NCBI GenBank assembly: GCA_005518205.2
Contig: RFFC02000002.1
Span: 1 to 64,000, forward strand
From: Hormoscilla sp. GUM202
GTDB taxonomy: Bacteria; Cyanobacteriota; Cyanobacteriia; Cyanobacteriales; Desertifilaceae
DNA: 64,000 nt
Direction of reading: 5' to 3'
Below, in pieces: positions 28,020 to 62,073 of this stretch. The first letter of the stretch is position 1; every line of letters starts with the position of its first letter. The notes beneath the pieces were generated by a model. That model was not told where the DNA came from. It was given only the letters and a program-made list of their open reading frames with translations, and did no database searches. A program made the position numbers and the translations under genes.

Positions 28020-29687
28020 TTGAACGGCCAGAAGCTATGGAAAAAACTAGCATCCCTGATTTTGGGACTGAGTACAGCGTTTCGATGTCTCCCGGGAGGG
28101 CTACTCGCACTACCCGTGAGACATCGACCTGTACCTGGGCCAGTGCTGGCATCAGAAGATTTATCAGTAGGATCCGCCGGGATCGATGCCCTGCGCCTGC
28201 ACGCAGCGCCCTATAACTTGCGAGGTCGTAAGATAGCGATCGGTCAAGTGGAGATTGGCAGACCAGGCAAGTTTGGCCTCGACAAAGCTGTAGCCCAAAA
28301 TCGTGTGGTTTGGCCAGCGCGGGTGTTCTTTCAGGATGATGAGGCCCAAACTAATAAGCATGTCGATCGCCACGCCCAAAACGTGGCCAGCATCATGATC
28401 AGTTCAGATAAAGCCTTTCCCGGCGTGGCCCCAGCAGCGAGGCTATACTCAGCCGCAGTAGGTCGGATCAGACGCAGCGGACAGCCCCAGGAATGCTTGT
28501 CAACTCAACATCTAGCGATGCAAAATAGTGGCGACCTCAGAGGGATAAACTTTAGTTTTGGCGAATCTCTGCGTCAAGACCCCCGAACAAATGCCGTTCT
28601 GGATGGCAACGCCCTGCTGACCCAATGTATTGACTGGTCAGCTAGGGTTCACAATGTCCTGTATGTGATTGCTGGCAATCAGGGCCGAGGCGGTATTTCC
28701 ATCCCTACCGATAACTACAATGGCATCAATGTGGCCTTTAGCAGGCGGGAACGGGGACGGTTTGCCAAAATCGACTTTGCCAATATCGGCGACCCGGAAG
28801 TCGGGATTGCCAAGCGGATTATCGGTCAGGAGACTAACATAGACAATCGGCGATCGATCGGTTTAGTAGCACCGGGCAATCAAATCCCCTTAGTGAACCT
28901 AGACAGTAGCATTAGCCGCGCCAGCGGCACCAGTTTTGCCGCCCCCCACGCAACTGCTACCTTGGCCCTACTACAGGAATATGGAGACAGGCAAATAGCC
29001 ACTTCAGGCCAAACCTCAGTTCAATGGACTCTGGATGCCCGCCGTCACGAAGTCATGAAAGCAGTAATGCTAAATTCTGCTGATAAAATAGAAGACCGGG
29101 GTGACGGGTTCAACCTGGGTATGAGTCGCACCCTTCTCGATCAAAATCACCATTCTTGGTTAGCCTCCGAAGCCTTTTACAATCAAAAAATTCCCCTGGA
29201 TATTCAAGTAGGATCCGGTCATCTAAATGCCTATCGTGCCTACCAGCAATTTAGTCCCGGTCAGTGGGGTCCAGAAGCGCCAGTGCCCCCGGTAGGCTGG
29301 GATTACAATACAGTAGAGGGGAATGACAGTACCTTTAAGGATTATATATTAGATCGACCCTTGGCGTCTGGGAGTATGGTGAGTATCACCTTAGCATGGA
29401 ATCGACGGGTAGAACTAGAAGATGCCAACAATAACAGCGAGTATGACCTTGGGGAAACATTTCAGGATAGGGGCTTAAACAACCTGGAACTATACCTGAT
29501 GCCAGCAGCAGAAAATGACATCAGAAAAAGCATTTGGTCCTCAGTTAGCCCAGTAGACAGCGTAGAACATATTTTCCACCGCATTCGGACCGCAGGCCGT
29601 TATAAAATCCGCGTCCAGTATCGCCAACAGGTTAACGAACCAGAACAACCCTATGCCTTAGCCTGGTGGACAGTCCCATCACCTTAA
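28020..29687 (+). CDS. Subtilisin-like serine protease with signal peptide
   Basis: The product is about 555 residues from a TTG at 28020, eight bases after GGAGG; a GTG at 28005 is the alternative. A basic hydrophobic leader (KLWKKLASLILGLSTAF) ends near PVLASEDL. The S8 fold shows DRHAQNVASIM (catalytic His about 118), VIAGNQG (oxyanion Asn) and SGTSFAAPHA (catalytic Ser about 304). The position of the catalytic Asp reads IGQVEIG, with E in place of D, so activity needs checking. A 44-bp palindrome (28083-28126) lies inside the leader and encodes part of it. The C-terminal 150 residues look like a beta domain. Predicted to be exported. Confidence 0.82.
   Translation: MNGQKLWKKLASLILGLSTAFRCLPGGLLALPVRHRPVPGPVLASEDLSVGSAGIDALRLHAAPYNLRGRKIAIGQVEIGRPGKFGLDKAVAQNRVVWPARVFFQDDEAQTNKHVDRHAQNVASIMISSDKAFPGVAPAARLYSAAVGRIRRSGQPQECLSTQHLAMQNSGDLRGINFSFGESLRQDPRTNAVLDGNALLTQCIDWSARVHNVLYVIAGNQGRGGISIPTDNYNGINVAFSRRERGRFAKIDFANIGDPEVGIAKRIIGQETNIDNRRSIGLVAPGNQIPLVNLDSSISRASGTSFAAPHATATLALLQEYGDRQIATSGQTSVQWTLDARRHEVMKAVMLNSADKIEDRGDGFNLGMSRTLLDQNHHSWLASEAFYNQKIPLDIQVGSGHLNAYRAYQQFSPGQWGPEAPVPPVGWDYNTVEGNDSTFKDYILDRPLASGSMVSITLAWNRRVELEDANNNSEYDLGETFQDRGLNNLELYLMPAAENDIRKSIWSSVSPVDSVEHIFHRIRTAGRYKIRVQYRQQVNEPEQPYALAWWTVPSP
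28083..28126. repeat. 44-bp palindrome (family C) inside the protease leader
   Basis: CGATGTCTC...GAGACATCG arms enclose GGCTACTCGCACTAC. The same 44-bp unit, with compensating arm changes, lies at 34273-34316, 47731-47774 and 47874-47917. Here it adds about 15 residues between the hydrophobic core and the cleavage region of the signal peptide. Confidence 0.85.
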
Positions 29688-30244: not shown

Positions 30245-31519
30245 ATGAACAGAAAAAATGTGAAATTAGGAAGAGCGATAGCCTGCGTGATATTGGTGCT
30301 AAGTTTATGGGGATGTGCAGCCATAGGAGATGTTGATGGCTCAAATGCTAAAGTGGACTGGACTCACATCCGGAAACAAAAACAGGCAGCAGAGATGAGA
30401 GAACAGAAGCTGATAGAAGCAAATACCATATTTGGTTTCAAACTGTTTCAGGAAATTCTCCAGACGGAAGGCGATCGGCAGAATATTTTTGTCTCCCCAA
30501 CCAGCGTGGCGATCGCCCTTTCGATGCTATCCAATGGTGCAGAAGGTACGACCTCAGAAGCAATGGCAAAAACTCTGGAGATACAGGGTATAGGTGAGAT
30601 TAACAGAGGCTATGGGGCCCTAAAAGCAAGCCTAGAAAACCCCGACCAAGATGTACAGCTAACCATTGCTAACTCCCTGTGGGCAAGGCAGGGGGTGCCC
30701 TTCAAAGCAGAATTCATTCAGAAAACCAAGCAATTCTATGGTGCCAAGGTAACAGATTTAGATTTTGAGGACAAGGATGCAGCAAAAGTAATTAACGGCT
30801 GGGTGGAAAATAACACGCAAGGCAAAATCAAGCAGATAGTAGAGGAAGTAAAACCAGATGATGTTTTATTTTTAATCAATGCTATCTACTTCAAAGGCAG
30901 GTGGGAAAATGAATTCGACCAGTACAAAACAGTCCCTCGACCATTTTATTTAGGGGATGGCAGCCAGAAAAGCCATCCGAGGATGTCCCAGACAGACGAA
31001 TATCGATATTACGAAACCGAGGAGTTTCAAGCAGTCAGCTTGCCCTACTCTCAAAGACGCCTGAGTCTGTATGTATTTCTGCCTCGGAAGCAGAGTAATC
31101 TGAAAGCATTTTACCAGCAGATGAATGCTCAGAATTGGGAAAAATGGATTGTGAAGTTTAGCAAACGAGATGGGAGGATCGAGCTACCGCGCTTTAAAAT
31201 CGAGTATGACATAGAACTGGACAGGGTACTCAAAGCCTTGGGAATGTCGGTAGCTTTCGACCCCAGGAAGGCGAACTTCTCAGGGATGAGTGAAATCAAA
31301 ACGAACATCGATCGAGTCAAGCACAAAACCTTCGTGGAAGTGAACGAAACAGGAACAGAAGCAGCAGCAGCGACATCCATAGGTATTGCAGCTACATCAG
31401 CACAAATACCATTAGAACCATCATTCCAGATGATTGTCGATCGCCCCTTCTTCTGCGCTATCCGCGATAATCAGACTGGTAGCATCTTGTTCATGGGGTC
31501 GATCGTCGATCCAAAGTAG
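30245..31519 (+). CDS. Serpin family lipoprotein
   Basis: The 424-residue product has a lipoprotein signal peptide (basic MNRKNVKLG, hydrophobic core, lipobox LWGC at about residue 23), so it should be membrane-anchored outside the cytoplasm. The serpin fold is clear: NIFVSPTSVAIALSMLSNGA, LINAIYFKGRWENEF and the C-terminal VDRPFFCAIRDNQTGSILFM. The reactive centre loop starts with the hinge GTEAAAATSIGIAATSAQIP (about 370-389). It has small residues as needed for insertion into the beta-sheet, so it looks inhibitory. The target is probably a serine or cysteine protease. Serpins are uncommon in bacteria. A subtilisin-like protease gene lies just upstream. Confidence 0.93.
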   Translation: MNRKNVKLGRAIACVILVLSLWGCAAIGDVDGSNAKVDWTHIRKQKQAAEMREQKLIEANTIFGFKLFQEILQTEGDRQNIFVSPTSVAIALSMLSNGAEGTTSEAMAKTLEIQGIGEINRGYGALKASLENPDQDVQLTIANSLWARQGVPFKAEFIQKTKQFYGAKVTDLDFEDKDAAKVINGWVENNTQGKIKQIVEEVKPDDVLFLINAIYFKGRWENEFDQYKTVPRPFYLGDGSQKSHPRMSQTDEYRYYETEEFQAVSLPYSQRRLSLYVFLPRKQSNLKAFYQQMNAQNWEKWIVKFSKRDGRIELPRFKIEYDIELDRVLKALGMSVAFDPRKANFSGMSEIKTNIDRVKHKTFVEVNETGTEAAAATSIGIAATSAQIPLEPSFQMIVDRPFFCAIRDNQTGSILFMGSIVDPK

Positions 31520-31524
31520 AGCAG

Positions 31525-31669
31525 TTCGTAGTAAGCACTTTAGTGCTTCGGGGTTCGTAGTAAGCACTTTAGTGCTTCGGGGTTCGTAGTAAGCACTTTA
31601 GTGCTTCGGGGTTCGTAGTAAGCACTTTAGTGCTTCGGGGTTCGTAGTAAGCACTTTAGTGCTTCCCAG
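31525..31669. repeat. Five tandem copies of a 29-bp palindrome-bearing unit
   Basis: The unit TTCGTAGTAAGCACTTTAGTGCTTCGGGG recurs at an exact 29-bp period from 31525, 31554, 31583, 31612 and 31641. The last copy ends in CCCAGGCGCGAAGCGC. Each unit contains the palindrome AAGCACTTTAGTGCTT. It lies directly after the serpin stop codon and would form repeated hairpins in the transcript end. Confidence 0.95.
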
Positions 31670-34272: not shown

Positions 34273-34316
34273 CGATGTCTCGGGAGAGCGCTATTCGCAC
34301 TACTCCCGAGACATCG
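34273..34316. repeat. 44-bp palindrome (family C), intergenic copy
   Basis: CGATGTCTCGGGAG and CTCCCGAGACATCG form 14-bp arms around CGCTATTCGCACTA. It is the cleanest intergenic example of the unit also found inside genes at 28083, 47731 and 47874. Confidence 0.9.
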
Positions 34317-34619: not shown

Positions 34620-35585
34620 TTAATTTTGATTTTTACCCTGCAACTCCTCGATCCAATCGAGTAAAATCGGATTAACGAGCGCCGGTGCCTCATCTTGGGG
34701 GCAATGTCCCACACCTGCCAGGGGAATAAACTTCTCTACTGCTGGAAATTCAGCTAACTGACGCCCCAGGTCTACCGGTTCCCACGGGTCTTCCGTTCCC
34801 CAGAGGATCAAAGCGGGACATTTCAGTTCGGCTAAGAGATCTTCGGGAAGCGGCCCAGTAGAATAGCGGGTGAAGGCGACAAACACATCGACAGCACCGG
34901 TATCTCTGGCGGGTGCCATCAGCAAGTCTACCAGTTCGTCGGTGACAGCTTCTGGACGCTTGTAGGCTTGTAGGAGAATCTTGCGCACAACTTGGGGCTG
35001 GGCAATTTGATTGAAGAATAGCTGCCCAATACATTTGACTGCTAGCAGATTTTGCAGGATGGGGGCTCCAAATCGTTGATGCCATGATAGCTGGTGTCGT
35101 CTGCGCTCGTGCAGCCGCCGCAGGGAACAGTCGATCAACACCACTCCATAAGCCAGATCTGGATAATCTACAGCTGCCTGCATCAGGGCAATACAACCAA
35201 TGGAATTGCCTAGCAAAAAAACCCGATCGCTCACGACTTCCTGACAAAAATCAGCAATTTGCTCTCCCCAGGTGGCAAAGGTATAGTCGATATCTACCCC
35301 AGGAGTAGGTTTGGCGGAACCGCCAAAACCGATCAAGTCGATCGCATAACAACGGCAAGCAGTCCCCAGCACTGGCAAGTTTTTACGCCAGTGGGCGCAG
35401 GAAGCCCCAAAGCCATGCACCATCACCACAGCAGGTCTGGGAGCGCTACTCGCACGTTCCCAGGCGGAGCCGTGGGAACGAGGGGGGGGACTGGTAATTC
35501 CTTGAGTTTGATAGCGGATGGGAAAACCCCGCCAGATCCAGGAATGAGTAGTAGTACTGGCAGTGTCTGCAGATATATTGGTCAT
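34620..35585 (-). CDS. Alpha/beta hydrolase
   Basis: The 321-residue product has an HGFGASCAHW oxyanion segment and the nucleophile elbow LLGNSIGCIAL (serine). The acid lies in ILWGTEDPWEPVD, and the catalytic histidine in AGVGHCPQDEAP. This is the fold of haloperoxidase/epoxide-hydrolase-like esterases of plants and cyanobacteria; the substrate is unknown. Between the N-terminal strand IRYQTQGI and the strand AVVMVHGFG it carries SPPPRSHGSAWERASS. That segment is encoded by a GTTCCC-type palindrome (about 35,440-35,485), so the gene has absorbed a repeat in frame. It is soluble and has no signal peptide. Confidence 0.88.
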   Translation of the reverse strand: MTNISADTASTTTHSWIWRGFPIRYQTQGITSPPPRSHGSAWERASSAPRPAVVMVHGFGASCAHWRKNLPVLGTACRCYAIDLIGFGGSAKPTPGVDIDYTFATWGEQIADFCQEVVSDRVFLLGNSIGCIALMQAAVDYPDLAYGVVLIDCSLRRLHERRRHQLSWHQRFGAPILQNLLAVKCIGQLFFNQIAQPQVVRKILLQAYKRPEAVTDELVDLLMAPARDTGAVDVFVAFTRYSTGPLPEDLLAELKCPALILWGTEDPWEPVDLGRQLAEFPAVEKFIPLAGVGHCPQDEAPALVNPILLDWIEELQGKNQN

Positions 35586-45864: not shown

Positions 45865-47360
45865 CAGCGGTTTTCAAGTTTATAGACTACAGGAGGATAT
45901 GTGCAAATGTGTTTAATTTTACAACAATATATTTTCGGGAAAGCTGTGCATACCTGCTCAATTATGTAGGTTGTAAATGGCAATTATAGCGCTTTACGGA
46001 CTACATTGGAGCCTTTTATTTAACCATTGAATAATTGATAACAGCTTGAGATGCACGACTGCTTACCCTTAAGCATCGTGGTTGTAAGTTCTGGTAAGAT
46101 ATCTAAACTTTACTTAGTCAAATTTGAGCGCAGCTTTTTTTCCACAAATGAGCGTGCGTCGCTATTAACTAAAGTAGCAGCAGTGAGTAAACCAATGTTG
46201 CAAATGCTCGGCAGTTATCATGTCAATACCTTTGGAAATAGCTGCTTCTATTTCTTCGCGAGTTTGAGGCTTGATTTTTTTTAACAAAGATTTCAGTTGT
46301 GACCACCAATTTTCTATGGGATTAAAATCCGGCGAATAAGCTGATAAATATACTAGCTTTGCTCCTACAGACTCGATAGCTTCTTTGACACCCTTAGCAT
46401 AGTGAGCTGGTAAGTTGTCAGCAACAACACAAGCTCCTTCCCAGAGCTGAGGCACTAACATTTCTTTGACAAAACCGAGAAATACATTGCCATTAGTTCC
46501 ACCATCAAAAGTCATAACAGTTTTTCAAAACTAATTGCTCCAATTAAAGTAAGGATATTACCATGAGGATAAGGAGCAACTCCATAGGCTCTTTTACCTC
46601 GTTCCGAACGAGCATAACTTTGTGTTATTCCCAACTGGATTCCTGTTTCATCTACAAAAACTAAATTTTTGAAATCGAAGGAAATAATTTTCTGCCAATA
46701 TTCAACTCTGTTTAGTTGTATTTCATCGGTTTGGGCTTTGGGAGCATATGTAGTTTTCTTTTTGCGTGTGATATTGTGTTTTTTCAAGAACCGACGTAGC
46801 AACACTCACTCTTAAAAGAGTGTCTTTTTCTAGACGTTCGCAAAGCTGAGATAAAGTAAGATCGTTACATTCTTCAAGATATTTAAATATCAGCTCTTTA
46901 TAAGAATCAAGTTTAGGTTTAGGACCACCACCTATAGGTAGGTGAGCAAGCCTACCGAAGTTAAAAAATTGTTTGATAATTCTGTAAACAGAACTTAAAC
47001 AAATGTTAAATCTCCGAGCTATTTGACGGAAAGTTCCTTCCCCATTGATATAAGCAGAAACTATTTTTTGACGCCGGTCCATAGAATAAGGCTTCATAAA
47101 TTTGACTTGTAAATTTGACATTTTTATCATATTGTATCATCGCTAATGCCCACAAATTATTTATAACCGACCCCAAAACATACATACTTGCATTTTTTCA
47201 GGTTTTCGATCGCAGATTTGAACCGGTCCTGTAGCAACACTATTTACAAGATTCTATTAAAGACAACCCTGAGTTGTTGCAATTGTTGCATGTTGCATTC
47301 GATACTTTAAATATATTTGTTGACATTGAAGCCTGTAGTCTATAAACTTGAAAACCGCTG
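45865..47360 (-). mobile_element. IS630-type element with 29-bp terminal inverted repeats
   Basis: The 29 bp at 45865-45893 (CAGCGGTTTTCAAGTTTATA...) are the exact complement of 47332-47360. The element is about 1.5 kb and carries a frameshifted IS630-like transposase. It is inserted in another transposase gene, so it is a nested insertion. No clear target duplication is visible. Confidence 0.85.
46165..47097 (-). pseudogene. IS630-family transposase, two frameshifts
   Basis: Three overlapping frames give one transposase. They hold MKPYSMDRRQKIVSAYING (helix-turn-helix), LVFVDETGIQLGITQSYARS (first Asp), GACVVADNLPAHYAKG (second Asp) and YSPDFNPIENWWSQLKSLL (third acidic). Breaks lie near 46,800 and 46,513. 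It is related to, but clearly different from, the intact transposase at 43312. Inactive as it stands. Confidence 0.88.
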
Positions 47361-47730
47361 TAAAACTATTGCAACTAGGTCTATCATCTCGTTATTGTAC
47401 AACGCCCTTTTTTCTTTTCATCTGCTTCGAGTTGGGCGATCGCTCTTGTTTTGGAGCTATTGGATCTGCTGTAAAATCAGCAAAAGCATCATCCAGCTTC
47501 ATGTTGCCCGTCTTCACCCCAACTTTAGGATCCCTGGGAGCCGACCGTTCTGAGTCCGTTGATGGCACATCAGCAAAGAAATCATCAAACTCATCCACCG
47601 TCAGCGCCTGATTTTCCTCTGAAAGGGATTCTCCCGTTCCCGAAACCGAGTCGGAGAGCTGAAGCTCTGGTGCCGAGGTTCCCTCATCTATATCTGACAA
47701 ACCCCAATCGTCAAATCCCCAATCATTCCC

Positions 47731-47774
47731 CGATATCTTCTCTTTTGTGCGGGTAGCGCTCCCAGAAGATATCG
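47731..47774. repeat. 44-bp palindrome (family C), read through in frame
   Basis: CGATATCTTCT and AGAAGATATCG arms enclose TTTTGTGCGGGTAGCGCTCCC. On the minus strand it encodes SISSGSATRTKEKISG within the third part of the split gene. Confidence 0.85.
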
Positions 47775-47873
47775 AAGAGGAGGGGAGTGATTCATCCCTT
47801 TTCGTTTCTGGCCCTGGATCTGCTGAGCTTATATCATCTAAAAACCCATCCAGACTCACATCTGACGAACCTT

Positions 47874-47917
47874 CGATATCTCTGAGGTAGTGCGAATATC
47901 GCTCCCCAGAGATATCG
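47874..47917. repeat. 44-bp palindrome (family C) causing a frameshift
   Basis: CGATATCTCTG and CAGAGATATCG arms (extended by CTT/AAG on each side) enclose the loop. It lies where the frame 48941-47856 ends. Removing 44 bp (or 50 bp) puts the two flanking reading frames in register. Confidence 0.9.
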
Positions 47918-49002
47918 AAGTCCCGAATCGCCTCATTATCGTCCTTGGAGTCTCAGTCGGTTCCTCTAGGTCTTCTTCCTCTGGGAATAGCTCCGCCAAA
48001 TTATCGATCGCCTCTGTTGCTGCCGCCGTTGGCCTATCCGCCGCCGCCGTTTCAGCGCCAGACCCCCCCTCGGAAGCAAACAACCAGTCCTCCAACGACC
48101 TTGCTGTTTCCGGGACAATATCCGGAGCTGGTTCTTCCTCTTCTGCAAACAAATCTTCCGCCAATGTTGCAGTTTGATTTATCGAGGTTTCGTCATTCGA
48201 GCTGCTCCCCTCGTTCCCACGGCTCTGCCTGGGAACGCTGGCTGTTTCTTGATTTGACTGGGTGAGAGATTCGCTACCCGTCGCCAAAGACTCTGGACCA
48301 AACATCGCATCGAATAAATCATCATCATCAGCATCTTGCTCTTTTCTCGGGGTCTGTTCCGACTCTGATGGGACATCGCCTTTACTCGGCTTTTTCCCCG
48401 AAATATCCTGCCGAGGAGCGATCTGGTTTATATTCAGCTTCTCCAGCAACTCTAGCGCTTCTGTCAACTGCTGAGACTGGCTTGACGAATTTGGAGCCCC
48501 TGCTCCTGGCGGCCTTTTTCTTGCTATAGTAGGTTCTGATGCATCTGGAGCCAAATCCTCGAAGCCCTCTATTTCCTTAGATTGTAACTCCTGAGTCGCC
48601 GACCAACTGAGTTCTGTTTCCGGTTGAGCGATTTCCGGTTTTTCCTCTGGAGCATTAGCCTTTGGCAGTTGCAACCCTGATTCAGTGACCTTTTTACCCG
48701 ACCTTTCTGGTCGAGATTGCACAAAACTCGAAGCCTCCCGTCCCAGCTGTTCTGCCAGAGTACTAATCAGGGCGCTAAACATCACCTCCCCCTGGTGCCC
48801 CAAACTATACATTTTGTCTATTCCTTGGGACAGAGACTCTTGATAGCTGTTAATATTTCTCTGGATCGTCTCGAATACTACAGCGATGCTTGAGTCTAGC
48901 TTCGTCAATAGTTGGTCGGACTCAGCTTGCAGCATACGCATTTGAGCCAGACGGTCCGAGGGAGTGAGTAGGGAGTGAGAGGGGTAGCTAGAGTCTGATA
49001 AT

Positions 49003-49111
49003 ACGCGATGTGCAACTTTCTACGGAAGAATAACGGTTTGGTGGTCTTTGGCTGAAAATGTTGTTCTCAAAACTCCCTAAATCTCGTTGGTTGGAAAAAG
49101 TTGCACACGGC
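49003..49111. mobile_element. 109-bp MITE with 10-bp target duplication
   Basis: GTCTGATAAT lies on both sides (48993-49002 and 49112-49121). Inner ends GCGATGTGCAACTTT and, reversed, GCCGTGTGCAACTTT form terminal inverted repeats. Removing element plus one duplication (119 bp) joins the upstream and downstream frames of the split gene exactly. Confidence 0.92.
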
Positions 49112-49905
49112 GTCTGATAATGGTTCCAGTTCCCTCGTGTAACTAACCGCCTCAGCTTCCAGACTCCTCATGATCTGGGCTACCTGCAAAAATTCCCGCA
49201 TCAGCTGTTGTTGTCCAGCTGCCTGCCGATCCATATAATATTGCTGTCGCTGATTTTCCAGCTGCCTGATTTCCCCGAGCAGATCGCTTCGCTGGCGTTG
49301 CAACGCTTCGAGATCCCCTTGTATTGGTTCCATCAGACTATTGCGCAGGTCTTGCACCACGGCATGCATTATTTGCTGATTCAGGGCTCCAGGTGTTACC
49401 CCGCCCCGATAAGGAGAAGGCGATGTCTCTGGGGTAGCGCTTTTAACAGTCGCTGGTGATGATAGCTCCGCACCTAGCATACTTCTCCGAGGGCCTGATG
49501 CTTCTGGTCTTTGCCCAATTTGAGTCCGAGTATAATCGCCATCTGCTTGCCGATGGTGCGGTGTCTGCTCCCTCGTTCCCACGGATCTGCCTGGGAACGT
49601 GCTTCTAGCGCTCCCAGGATATGCAGCACCAGGAGACCCAGATGATTGCAGGGATACCAGATAGCTGCGCACTCGCTCTAGTACCCGCCGTTGTCTTTCA
49701 ACATCTCCAGACATCACCCAAGGTAGGCTAGGGCTTGCTTTGCGGAGGACTGCGTCTATTTCCGCAATCATTGTTTGGAGTTGGTCATTGCCAGATGTCA
49801 CAGCTTCTCTAAAGGTGCCTATCACTTTCTACTTGCATCTTACCACCGCTAGTGCGTGAGAATAACTCACTTATTTCATGTGCTGCGTTTAACCCTCACA
49901 AATCG

Positions 49906-50363: not shown

Positions 50364-50467
50364 TAAGTACATGGACAAAATTAATTTCACACACTCTCTC
50401 GCGCTAGTCTCCATATCCGGAGCATGTCGCCCATGGCTATGTGCAATTATTTTTGTCTAACTACTTA
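50364..50467. mobile_element. 104-bp MITE (copy C)
   Basis: It is the reverse complement of the MITE at 31812-31915, same length, nearly identical. It is intergenic. From 50468 to 50907 I see no gene. Confidence 0.9.
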
Positions 50468-53519: not shown

Positions 53520-53625
53520 GGCGTTGCACATTTTTGGGATGATAGCAGTCAATGGTTGCCGTTCCCAGGCTCCCGCCTGGGGACGGCAATTTTCAACCCT
53601 TATCATCCCGTAGTTGTGCAACGCC
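53520..53625. mobile_element. 106-bp MITE with 8-bp target duplication and nested palindrome
   Basis: Ends GGCGTTGCACATTTTTGGGA and, reversed, GGCGTTGCACAACTACGGGA are inverted. CAAACTCC flanks both sides (53512-53519, 53626-53633). A GCCGTTCCC...GGGGACGGC palindrome of family A occupies its centre (about 53559-53588). Confidence 0.88.
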
Positions 53626-59871: not shown

Positions 59872-60317
59872 GACCCTTGGTGTGAGCAGATGAAGAGCCC
59901 TATGGCTGCACGCTCCGGGACCCCTCCGCTACGCAGTGCGCGATCGGCGTCGTCGGGTGCGATTTACCCAAAGCGCAATTATACCATAGATCGTGGCTCG
60001 CTATACATTCGAGATCGTAATTGCTCAAGATATTGGTGGTGAAGGAATATGGGTACTGCCGGTACTGCATAGTTACTCGGGCCATCGGACTGGAGTGAAC
60101 AGCCCTTGTACTGCCTCGGAATGCCTAACAGGACAAGAGCAATTTTTGAGGAGCGAAAACTTCTCAAATGCTTACGGGGTGGGGGGTTTTGACCTCGAAG
60201 TGGTGAGTCGGCAGCCGAGCGCCCGAATATGCAGTTGAGATGCGCGACAGCTGATTTTTTTCAAAATCCCGCGCCCAGGGTTGACAAATTCGATAAATAA
60301 GTAGTAAGTTGGAAGAC

Positions 60318-61865
60318 ATGACTAAGAATTGGCTTGCTGACCTCGACCAAGACACAGAGAATCTCGACCCAAAAAGTCGGGAAGTTTTGCAGCGGTTACT
60401 CAATTACCTAGAAGACCTATACAGCCAAAACCTTGAATTGAAAGCTGACAATCAACGATTGAGAGATGAAATAGCCGCGCTCAAAGGGCACAAGGGAAAA
60501 CCTGACATCAAACCTCAAGCCAAAGCTGATACTTCTAAAGCTGATACTTCTGCGGAGGCCAAACCAGAGCAGCCCAATAGTCGAGAGCGAAAAAAGAAAA
60601 AACCGAAAACCCCCCCCCAGGAACGTCGCCAACTTATTCATATTGACAGAGAAGAGGTTATCAAACTGGCTCGGAGTAACTTGCCGTCAGATATCACCCA
60701 TAGAGGCTACCGAGAAGTAACAATTCAAAATATTATATTTAAAACAGACACGGTTATTTATCGACTAGAAAGACTCTATTCACCTAGTACGGAGAAATTT
60801 TACGAAGCCCAGTTGCCGCAAGGATTAAAAGGCAAATCTTACGGGAGTGAACTCGAAGCATTTGTTCTCACTTTGTATTATCAGTTACGAGTGCCAGAAG
60901 AAAAGATTCTTAAATTGTTGCAGTCTCAGGGAATAGTAATCTCGGCGGGAAAAATATCTAACTTAATAACTCGGCAATATTTAAGAGAATTTACTGAAGA
61001 ACGAAATGCTATTTTAGAAGCGGGACTGGGCAGTACCAGTTATCACCAAATTGATGATACGGGGATGCGGGTTAATGGGAAAAATTGCTATGTATTCACA
61101 CTCTGCAATCCTTACTATAGCAGTTTTTTTACCAGAGAGCGCAAAAACTCTGAAACAGTTCTCCAAATGTTAAACGAATTGCAGTTGGATCCAACTGAAT
61201 TAGCAGTTGTTCAATCAGATGATTTAGTTGACAGTATTTTGCCTGACAAGAAGAAAAAGCAGCTCGGGGACTACATAGATATTTTGGTGGCTGATGACGC
61301 GGGACAATTTCACAACCAGACGAACCATCGTAGTTTATGCTGGATTCATGAAGGACGACACTACGAAAAGCTGACTCCTCTGGTTCCCTCTCATCAAAAA
61401 AGCCTGGCACAATTTCTCTCTTATTTTTGGATTTACTATTATCAACTCAAAGCCTATCAACAGCAAAGCACAGAAGAGCAGCGACAACAAAAACTGTTGC
61501 TTGAAACCGAATTTGACAAATTGTTTTCCCGTCAAACCGGATACAGTGCTTTAGATCATAGAATTGATTTAACAAAACAGAAGAAGCCTTATTTACTATT
61601 AGTTCTAGATTTTCCTGAAGTTCCTCTTGACAATAATGAGGCAGAGCGGACAGTCCGGGAGTATGTGATTAAGCGCAAAATCTCCAATGGAACCCGCACT
61701 CTACAGGGGACTCAGGCGTGGGAAGTGTTTTTGGCTCTGGTTGACACCTGCCGCAAAAACGGAGTGAATTTTTATTCGTACATTAAGGATCGAATTTCCA
61801 AATCTTTCAAGATGCCAGCGTTGTCCACGCTAATTCAACAGATGCAGCCGCCAAAACCAACATAA
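60318..61865 (+). CDS. IS66-family transposase (intact)
   Basis: From the ATG at 60318 the product is 515 residues. The N-terminal part has a coiled coil (VLQRLLNYLEDLYSQNLELK) and a charged linker (ERKKKKPKTPP). The catalytic domain has YHQIDDTGMRVNGKNCYVF, DILVADDAGQF..HRSLCWIHEGRHYEKL and the last acidic site in VPLDNNEAERTVREYVIKRK. No frame break is visible. The related TnpA/TnpB accessory genes of classical IS66 are absent. Element ends are not clear; an AAAATCCCGCGCC stretch about 45 bp upstream and the sequence after 61,870 are candidates. Confidence 0.9.
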   Translation: MTKNWLADLDQDTENLDPKSREVLQRLLNYLEDLYSQNLELKADNQRLRDEIAALKGHKGKPDIKPQAKADTSKADTSAEAKPEQPNSRERKKKKPKTPPQERRQLIHIDREEVIKLARSNLPSDITHRGYREVTIQNIIFKTDTVIYRLERLYSPSTEKFYEAQLPQGLKGKSYGSELEAFVLTLYYQLRVPEEKILKLLQSQGIVISAGKISNLITRQYLREFTEERNAILEAGLGSTSYHQIDDTGMRVNGKNCYVFTLCNPYYSSFFTRERKNSETVLQMLNELQLDPTELAVVQSDDLVDSILPDKKKKQLGDYIDILVADDAGQFHNQTNHRSLCWIHEGRHYEKLTPLVPSHQKSLAQFLSYFWIYYYQLKAYQQQSTEEQRQQKLLLETEFDKLFSRQTGYSALDHRIDLTKQKKPYLLLVLDFPEVPLDNNEAERTVREYVIKRKISNGTRTLQGTQAWEVFLALVDTCRKNGVNFYSYIKDRISKSFKMPALSTLIQQMQPPKPT

Positions 61866-62073
61866 ACATAAACCATTGACTCCAAGTCTCGCTTGTGTAG
61901 TTTCCACCTAAGCACCAAGGGTGTTACAGCTCCTTGTTATAAAGGACAGACTCATTAAGTGCGACATCAGCTCCTGTTTAAAAAGCTGCAGGAGCTACTC
62001 TCGTGTGGAAATCACTCCCCACCAACATATTGAGCAACTTCTCGAGATCGACTGTCTCTATTGCGGCGAGCAG

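Follow-up and report, generated by a model that had tools for sequence, protein, structure and literature searches.

Why is one gene of the sponge-dwelling cyanobacterial symbiont Hormoscilla broken into two reading frames beside a palindrome, and did the palindrome break it? The gene lies on the minus strand at positions 47392-48941 of the window, by which we mean the whole 64,000-nucleotide stretch of Hormoscilla sp. GUM202 DNA analysed here; it belongs to no Pfam family, and the ORF list of the window gives it as two frames (48941-47856 and 47859-47392) that are, as already reported, mutually out of register. The palindrome, on the same strand, is a 50-bp hairpin (47871-47920) around a 44-bp unit (47874-47917), with the minus-strand head AGCGATATTCGCACTAC. 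A preliminary description of this DNA had proposed that the palindrome split the reading frame and that removing its 44-bp core would rejoin the halves. We found that removal does join the two frames, RRFG to SSDVSLDG, but only when the full 50 bp are taken out; loss of the 44-bp core leaves GGG-ACT-TAA, that is, a stop. That 44 and 50 both equal 2 modulo 3 is a coincidence. Indeed, the frame of the downstream ORF, 47859-47392, runs on through the palindrome (DSKDDNEAIRDFDISGERYSHYLRDIEGSSDVSLDGFLDD; also given as DFDISGERYSHYLRDIEGSSDVSLDG) and translates it as ..FDISGERYSHYLRDIE.. Since this ORF already reads through the palindrome, the break must lie upstream of it and not inside.

To locate the break we compared the window genome (G000) with two other Hormoscilla genomes, those of Hormoscilla sp. 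GM7CHS1pb (G001) and of a strain that is probably SP12CHS1 (G002). The orthologue of the split gene in G001 is an uninterrupted frame of 1045 codons, and this intact frame (locus L017) holds the palindrome too, at the corresponding position, with 2 of the 44 bases of the unit and none of those in the flanking 3-bp extensions differing. The preliminary description had named, as grounds for refuting it, relatives whose longer frame is intact although it contains these 44 bp; G001 is such a relative. In other genera of the family the orthologues are open frames of about 850-1000 codons, which suggests that the long form of the gene is ancestral. The 5′ part of the gene is 99.8% identical at the DNA level between the window and G001 (BLAST). 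Between common anchors, however, the window has 4 bases where G001 has 872, a loss of 868 bp (1 modulo 3), with the junction at 47942-47946, which in the sense of the gene precedes the palindrome by about 22 bp. TCCT stands at both ends of the 868-bp stretch in G001, and the junction can be read as a 4-bp microhomology or as a 1-bp join.

As judged from these alignments, the frame is shifted because 868 bp were deleted at 47942-47946, and the break was caused by this separate deletion adjoining the palindrome, not by the palindrome. Since all three Hormoscilla assemblies are multi-contig, and at least two are metagenome-derived, an assembly error in the window genome could in principle account for the apparent deletion. 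The opposing account, in which the palindrome inserted recently, itself broke the frame, and would by its removal restore the gene, can draw on the shared remainder of 44 and 50 and on the numerical join after removal of 50 bp. We consider it extremely improbable, given the intact G001 frame with the same palindrome, a downstream frame that already passes through the palindrome, a shift accounted for by the 868-bp deletion, and the stop that results from taking out the 44 bp. Just downstream of the split gene lies a broken IS630-like transposase (HTH_28 + DDE_3) in overlapping frames (46165-47130, minus strand).

Several other features of the window and its genome were noted. Two stretches of ~100 bp (49003-49111 and 50367-50465) are absent from G001, with flanks 99.8-100% identical; the second belongs to a 104-nt repeat with three copies (31812, 42383 and 50364), possibly a MITE. 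A probable insertion sequence of ~2.03 kb occupies 60014-62041 and also G000:C2:109890-111918; G001 has its copy elsewhere, and the G001 flanks are contiguous across about 60014/62042. A 29-bp unit, GTTCGTAGTAAGCACTTTAGTGCTTCGGG, with a hairpin of its own (AAGCACTTTAGTGCTT), is repeated in tandem at 31495-31668. Between G000:C2 and G001:C6, identity jumps back and forth between ~89% and 99.9% over short stretches and synteny is broken, a pattern that suggests recombination.

Although the proposal failed at 47871-47920, its general inference, that of a spreading palindromic element that enters genes, was borne out. The element is a 44-bp hairpin of two 14-bp arms around a conserved head, AGCGCTANNNGCACTAC. 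A pattern search for 44-bp palindromes with the ends CGATRTCT...AGAYATCG returned four in the window, against 0.03 expected by shuffling, and these are the four units described before: 28083-28126 and 34273-34316 on the plus strand, and 47731-47774 and 47874-47917 on the minus strand. The copy at 28083 is in frame and close to the N-terminal end of a subtilase, and that at 34273 sits in a short 108-codon frame of uncertain gene status. The copy at 47731, a second one in the split gene, has an AAAAG head variant; alignment to G001 showed a counterpart that is 24 bp longer, contains a CGTTCCCACGGCTCCGCCTGGGAACG element and keeps the frame. At 35437-35481 (plus strand) part of a 44-bp element (TCTGGGAGCGCTACTCGCAC) is joined to a CGTTCCCAGGCGGAGCCGTGGGAACGA element; this composite occurs in relatives as well (L199). 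Another short palindromic repeat, of the CGTTCCCAGGC..GCCTGGGAACG type, lies at 48212-48238, 49574-49600, 35455-35481 and 53560-53586; in the split gene it is read through as VPRQSRGNEG, and in relatives it is found fused into 44-bp heads (L180, L199).

The hairpin is present in about 200 copies in G000 and in about 120-130 in each of the other two Hormoscilla genomes. The head pattern gave 239 matches in G000 at up to 2 mismatches, versus 34 for a reversed control, and at up to 1 mismatch 132 in G001 (control 4) and 121 in G002 (control 1). Matches to the arm pattern numbered 77, 52 and 57 in the three Hormoscilla genomes, against 0-2 in each of 56 further genomes from the family and order, and an exact 22-bp core (head plus inner arm) was found, among 84,980 species, only in Hormoscilla. 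The same kind of arms also enclose two other interiors, giving elements of ~54 bp (TTGTGCTCTTGTCCCAGGGGACTCGGCACA) and 41 bp (GGGTTTTCGCCGTGCGTCC). A text search of papers on Hormoscilla genomes found no mention of the 44-bp hairpin.

Insertion was followed by querying G001 and G002 with the flanks of individual copies, using local alignment. Clean empty sites were found for six copies: those at 28083 and 34273 of the window, each with its site empty in both G001 and G002, and four elsewhere (L142, L139, L131 and L123). The net gain was +45 bp in all six; for the copy at 34273 the figure is relative to G001, and the subtilase with the copy at 28083 has 561 codons in the window, 547 in G001 and 546 in G002. 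Loci L130 and L137 were left out of this count, as the flanks of their relatives differ, and a copy in RadA, which sits in a linker variable between genera, was for that reason not used as proof of insertion. At five of the six sites one and the same long frame is open in both the occupied and the empty state, the insert adding 15 codons in frame; the genes hit encode the subtilase, a phosphoribosyltransferase-like protein, an AMP-binding enzyme, a DUF4351 protein and a Ser/Thr kinase with WG repeats. In the AMP-binding enzyme (L139:376-1599, plus strand, on G000:C22) the hairpin lies in frame just before FTSGSTGRP, and the G002 site is empty. The reading frame of the element that is used differs between copies. 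The alignments of occupied and empty sites thus demonstrate that the element lands in new sites, genes included, and the inserts are probably translated, judging from the open frames.

A preference for genes was looked for and not seen: 20 of 51 elements lie in open frames of at least 150 aa, compared with about 68% of random windows. This under-representation in long frames indicates that the in-frame copies are survivors of selection and that genes are tolerated, not preferred, as targets.

At none of the six empty sites did we find a target-site duplication; instead, 0-4 target bases were replaced. These junctions bear on whether the hairpin could be a MITE, derived by deletion from a DDE insertion sequence that has terminal inverted repeats, a view suggested by inverted-repeat ends that are common to several interiors (44, 54 and 41 bp). 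Against it stand not only the six sites lacking a duplication, but also arms that are variable in sequence, unlike conserved terminal inverted repeats, and the fact that no parent element was identified, the neighbourhoods examined being those of Y1 transposases only. We therefore regard a MITE origin as very improbable. More generally, the non-uniform junctions, with 0-4 target bases replaced, fit no standard transposase.

The hairpin also enters itself. In G002 we found nested insertions of the 44-bp type (L134 locus) and of the 41-bp type (L126 locus) into older 44-bp heads, with net gains of +43 and +40, respectively. The nesting point is identical for both: AGC-GC-TA becomes AGC-T-[element]-TA, GC being replaced by T plus the element. 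Nested self-insertion is seen as well from L179 versus L134, and in others, and deeper nests occur, such as three layers around L014. Because the 44-bp and 41-bp types share this nesting target, these results suggest one common machinery for the different interiors.

How, then, do the arms stay paired? The preliminary description had noted that the arm differences among copies compensate one another, and we found the same in 83 distinct copies, selected only by their head. At each of 14 positions 60-76 of the 83 form Watson-Crick pairs, and at the next position 39 do; all four pair types occur at several arm positions, and pairs are far above independence (for example, 68 versus 24.6 expected at the fourth pair). 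Of 693 stem cells in well-paired copies, 10 are G.T/T.G and 38 hold other mismatches. G.T is therefore not specially tolerated, which speaks for pairing kept at the DNA level and not by selection on RNA. Orthologous copies showed two-sided changes, T-A/G-C at G000:C1:21262, A-T/C-G at C1:29504 and C-G/G-C at L144, and all three are transversion pairs, for which no G.T step is possible. At G000:C2:154989, two adjacent changes perfect a mismatched arm, relative to G002 and to sister copies. In a copy of the 54-bp type (L012) one arm has become an exact complement in two of the genomes, G000 and G001, but not in G002; the loop of this copy is inverted between G000 and G001 (compare L111 and L112), TAAA in one corresponding to its reverse complement TTTA in the other. 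Multiple compensatory changes, together with loop inversions, are described as traces that template switching leaves behind (PMC8794818).

Among 32 orthologous copy pairs, 27 of the changed stem pairs were one-sided and 2 two-sided, the L144 case standing outside this count (excluded for gaps). With 27 of 29 changes one-sided, correction of arms at resident copies must be occasional, and most of the paired variation must have its origin at an earlier stage or in the course of spread. We propose that arm sequence drifts while pairing is kept, one arm being copied from the other by template switching, which would take place in an extruded or single-stranded hairpin; mobilisation that favours well-paired copies possibly helps to keep the arms paired. 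Arms copied from the flanking target were considered and rejected, since the same subfamilies (CCGTGTC, CTGTGTC and CGATGTC) recur at unrelated sites.

Alternatively, covariation may be kept not by arm copying but by selection that acts on a hairpin, of RNA or of DNA, serving as a terminator, a processing signal or a site of transposase recognition. For most copies folded, none of 200 shuffles was as stable; pairing stops exactly at 14 bp; and several recently inserted copies have perfect stems. These points count in favour of such selection. The G.T/T.G count set against that of the other mismatch types is, however, unlike RNA selection, one-sided changes build up in resident copies, and the inverted loop and the adjacent arm-perfecting changes point to copying. 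We thus hold selection in place of copying to be rather unlikely, although recognition of the DNA hairpin in mobilisation may act together with arm copying. Quasipalindrome correction by template switching (PMC8794818, PMC7202029) likewise involves stem changes in pairs, perfected arms and inverted loops, all of which we saw at orthologous copies; in those accounts, however, it is a mutational process at resident hairpins, whereas in Hormoscilla it concerns a multicopy mobile hairpin and may also diversify the arms.

We looked for a mobilising enzyme through counts of Y1 transposase genes and their neighbourhoods, and found none by these means. Y1 transposase genes (PF01797) were present in 10 of 10 genomes searched, with no excess in Hormoscilla over its relatives, and at the nine Hormoscilla loci examined no hairpin copy lay within ~1.5 kb of a Y1_Tnp gene. 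These observations weigh on the idea that the hairpin is a GTAG-type REP mobilised by a RAYT (Y1 HUH) transposase. It is a short palindrome in many copies with GTAG in its head (GGGTAGTGCGA), cyanobacterial REPs are on record (PMC3733652), and Y1 transposases do occur in Hormoscilla; yet GTAG lies in the loop region and not at one end, the examined Y1 loci have no hairpin nearby, and Y1 genes are as common in genera without the element. We hold a GTAG-type REP to be an improbable identity for the hairpin, although a RAYT might act on it in trans.

With a probability of roughly 0.85, the best joint explanation of insertion, nesting and paired arms is that the hairpin is a small, non-coding, dispersed mobile element confined to the genus Hormoscilla, to which we add, as proposals, arm copying and a protein acting in trans. 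This protein would recognise the shared arms or the hairpin, and the DNA intermediate of movement is probably single-stranded or a hairpin. A bolder version, which we find doubtful, is a self-templating mobile hairpin: the second arm of each new copy would be copied from the first during transfer, which would let the arms mutate freely and still remain complementary, the heads (44, 54 and 41 bp) would be interchangeable and share their machinery, and a couple of target bases would be replaced. If true, this would be a mode of spread without a known enzyme family.

Among known systems, the hairpin works like a Rickettsia palindromic element (RPE) or a cyanobacterial small dispersed repeat (SDR), and by the features tested it is a member of neither. 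The SDRs of Nostoc punctiforme, attributed to Elhai et al. 2008 (Genome Res 18:1484), are reportedly 21-27 nt long, with compensatory stem changes and nested self-insertions. SDRs occur mostly in Nostocales. Both they and the Hormoscilla hairpin are very small cyanobacterial mobile repeats with nested self-insertion; the hairpin stands apart, being a 44-bp unit, found in Hormoscilla only, a different lineage, and not a 21-27 nt Nostocales unit. SDR5 inserts precisely into HIP1 (PMC4390886), whereas the empty sites in Hormoscilla are not HIP1. RPEs are palindromic repeats of about 150 bp that lie in frame in protein genes; like the Hormoscilla hairpin, they are short palindromes that have entered numerous unrelated protein genes in a bacterium associated with a host, and they are translated (PMC10969869), as the hairpin probably is. 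The hairpin shares the in-frame feature (five of six clean insertions) but not the ~150-bp RPE-family unit, and by the RPE description it is set apart by its 44 bp and its use of several reading frames; it also enters itself at a fixed point and gives a constant +45 bp at empty sites. REP/GTAG elements with their RAYTs (PMC3733652, PMC3116915) are short palindromes in hundreds of copies, some in genes, and are found in other cyanobacteria; the hairpin, in contrast, has GTAG in its loop region in place of an end tag, variable arms around a conserved head, and no RAYT near the examined loci. A MITE would carry the target-site duplication that is missing from the six empty sites.

With the hairpin, a sponge symbiont only distantly related to Rickettsia becomes a second and independent lineage whose real genes have repeatedly received a tiny palindrome in frame, and here the insertion step itself is visible through empty sites in sister genomes. 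The way in which repeats of this size move, and yet keep their palindrome, is a long-standing question. Both the movement and the palindrome upkeep of small repeats become directly testable through the constant +45 bp, the fixed point of nesting and the paired changes in the arms.
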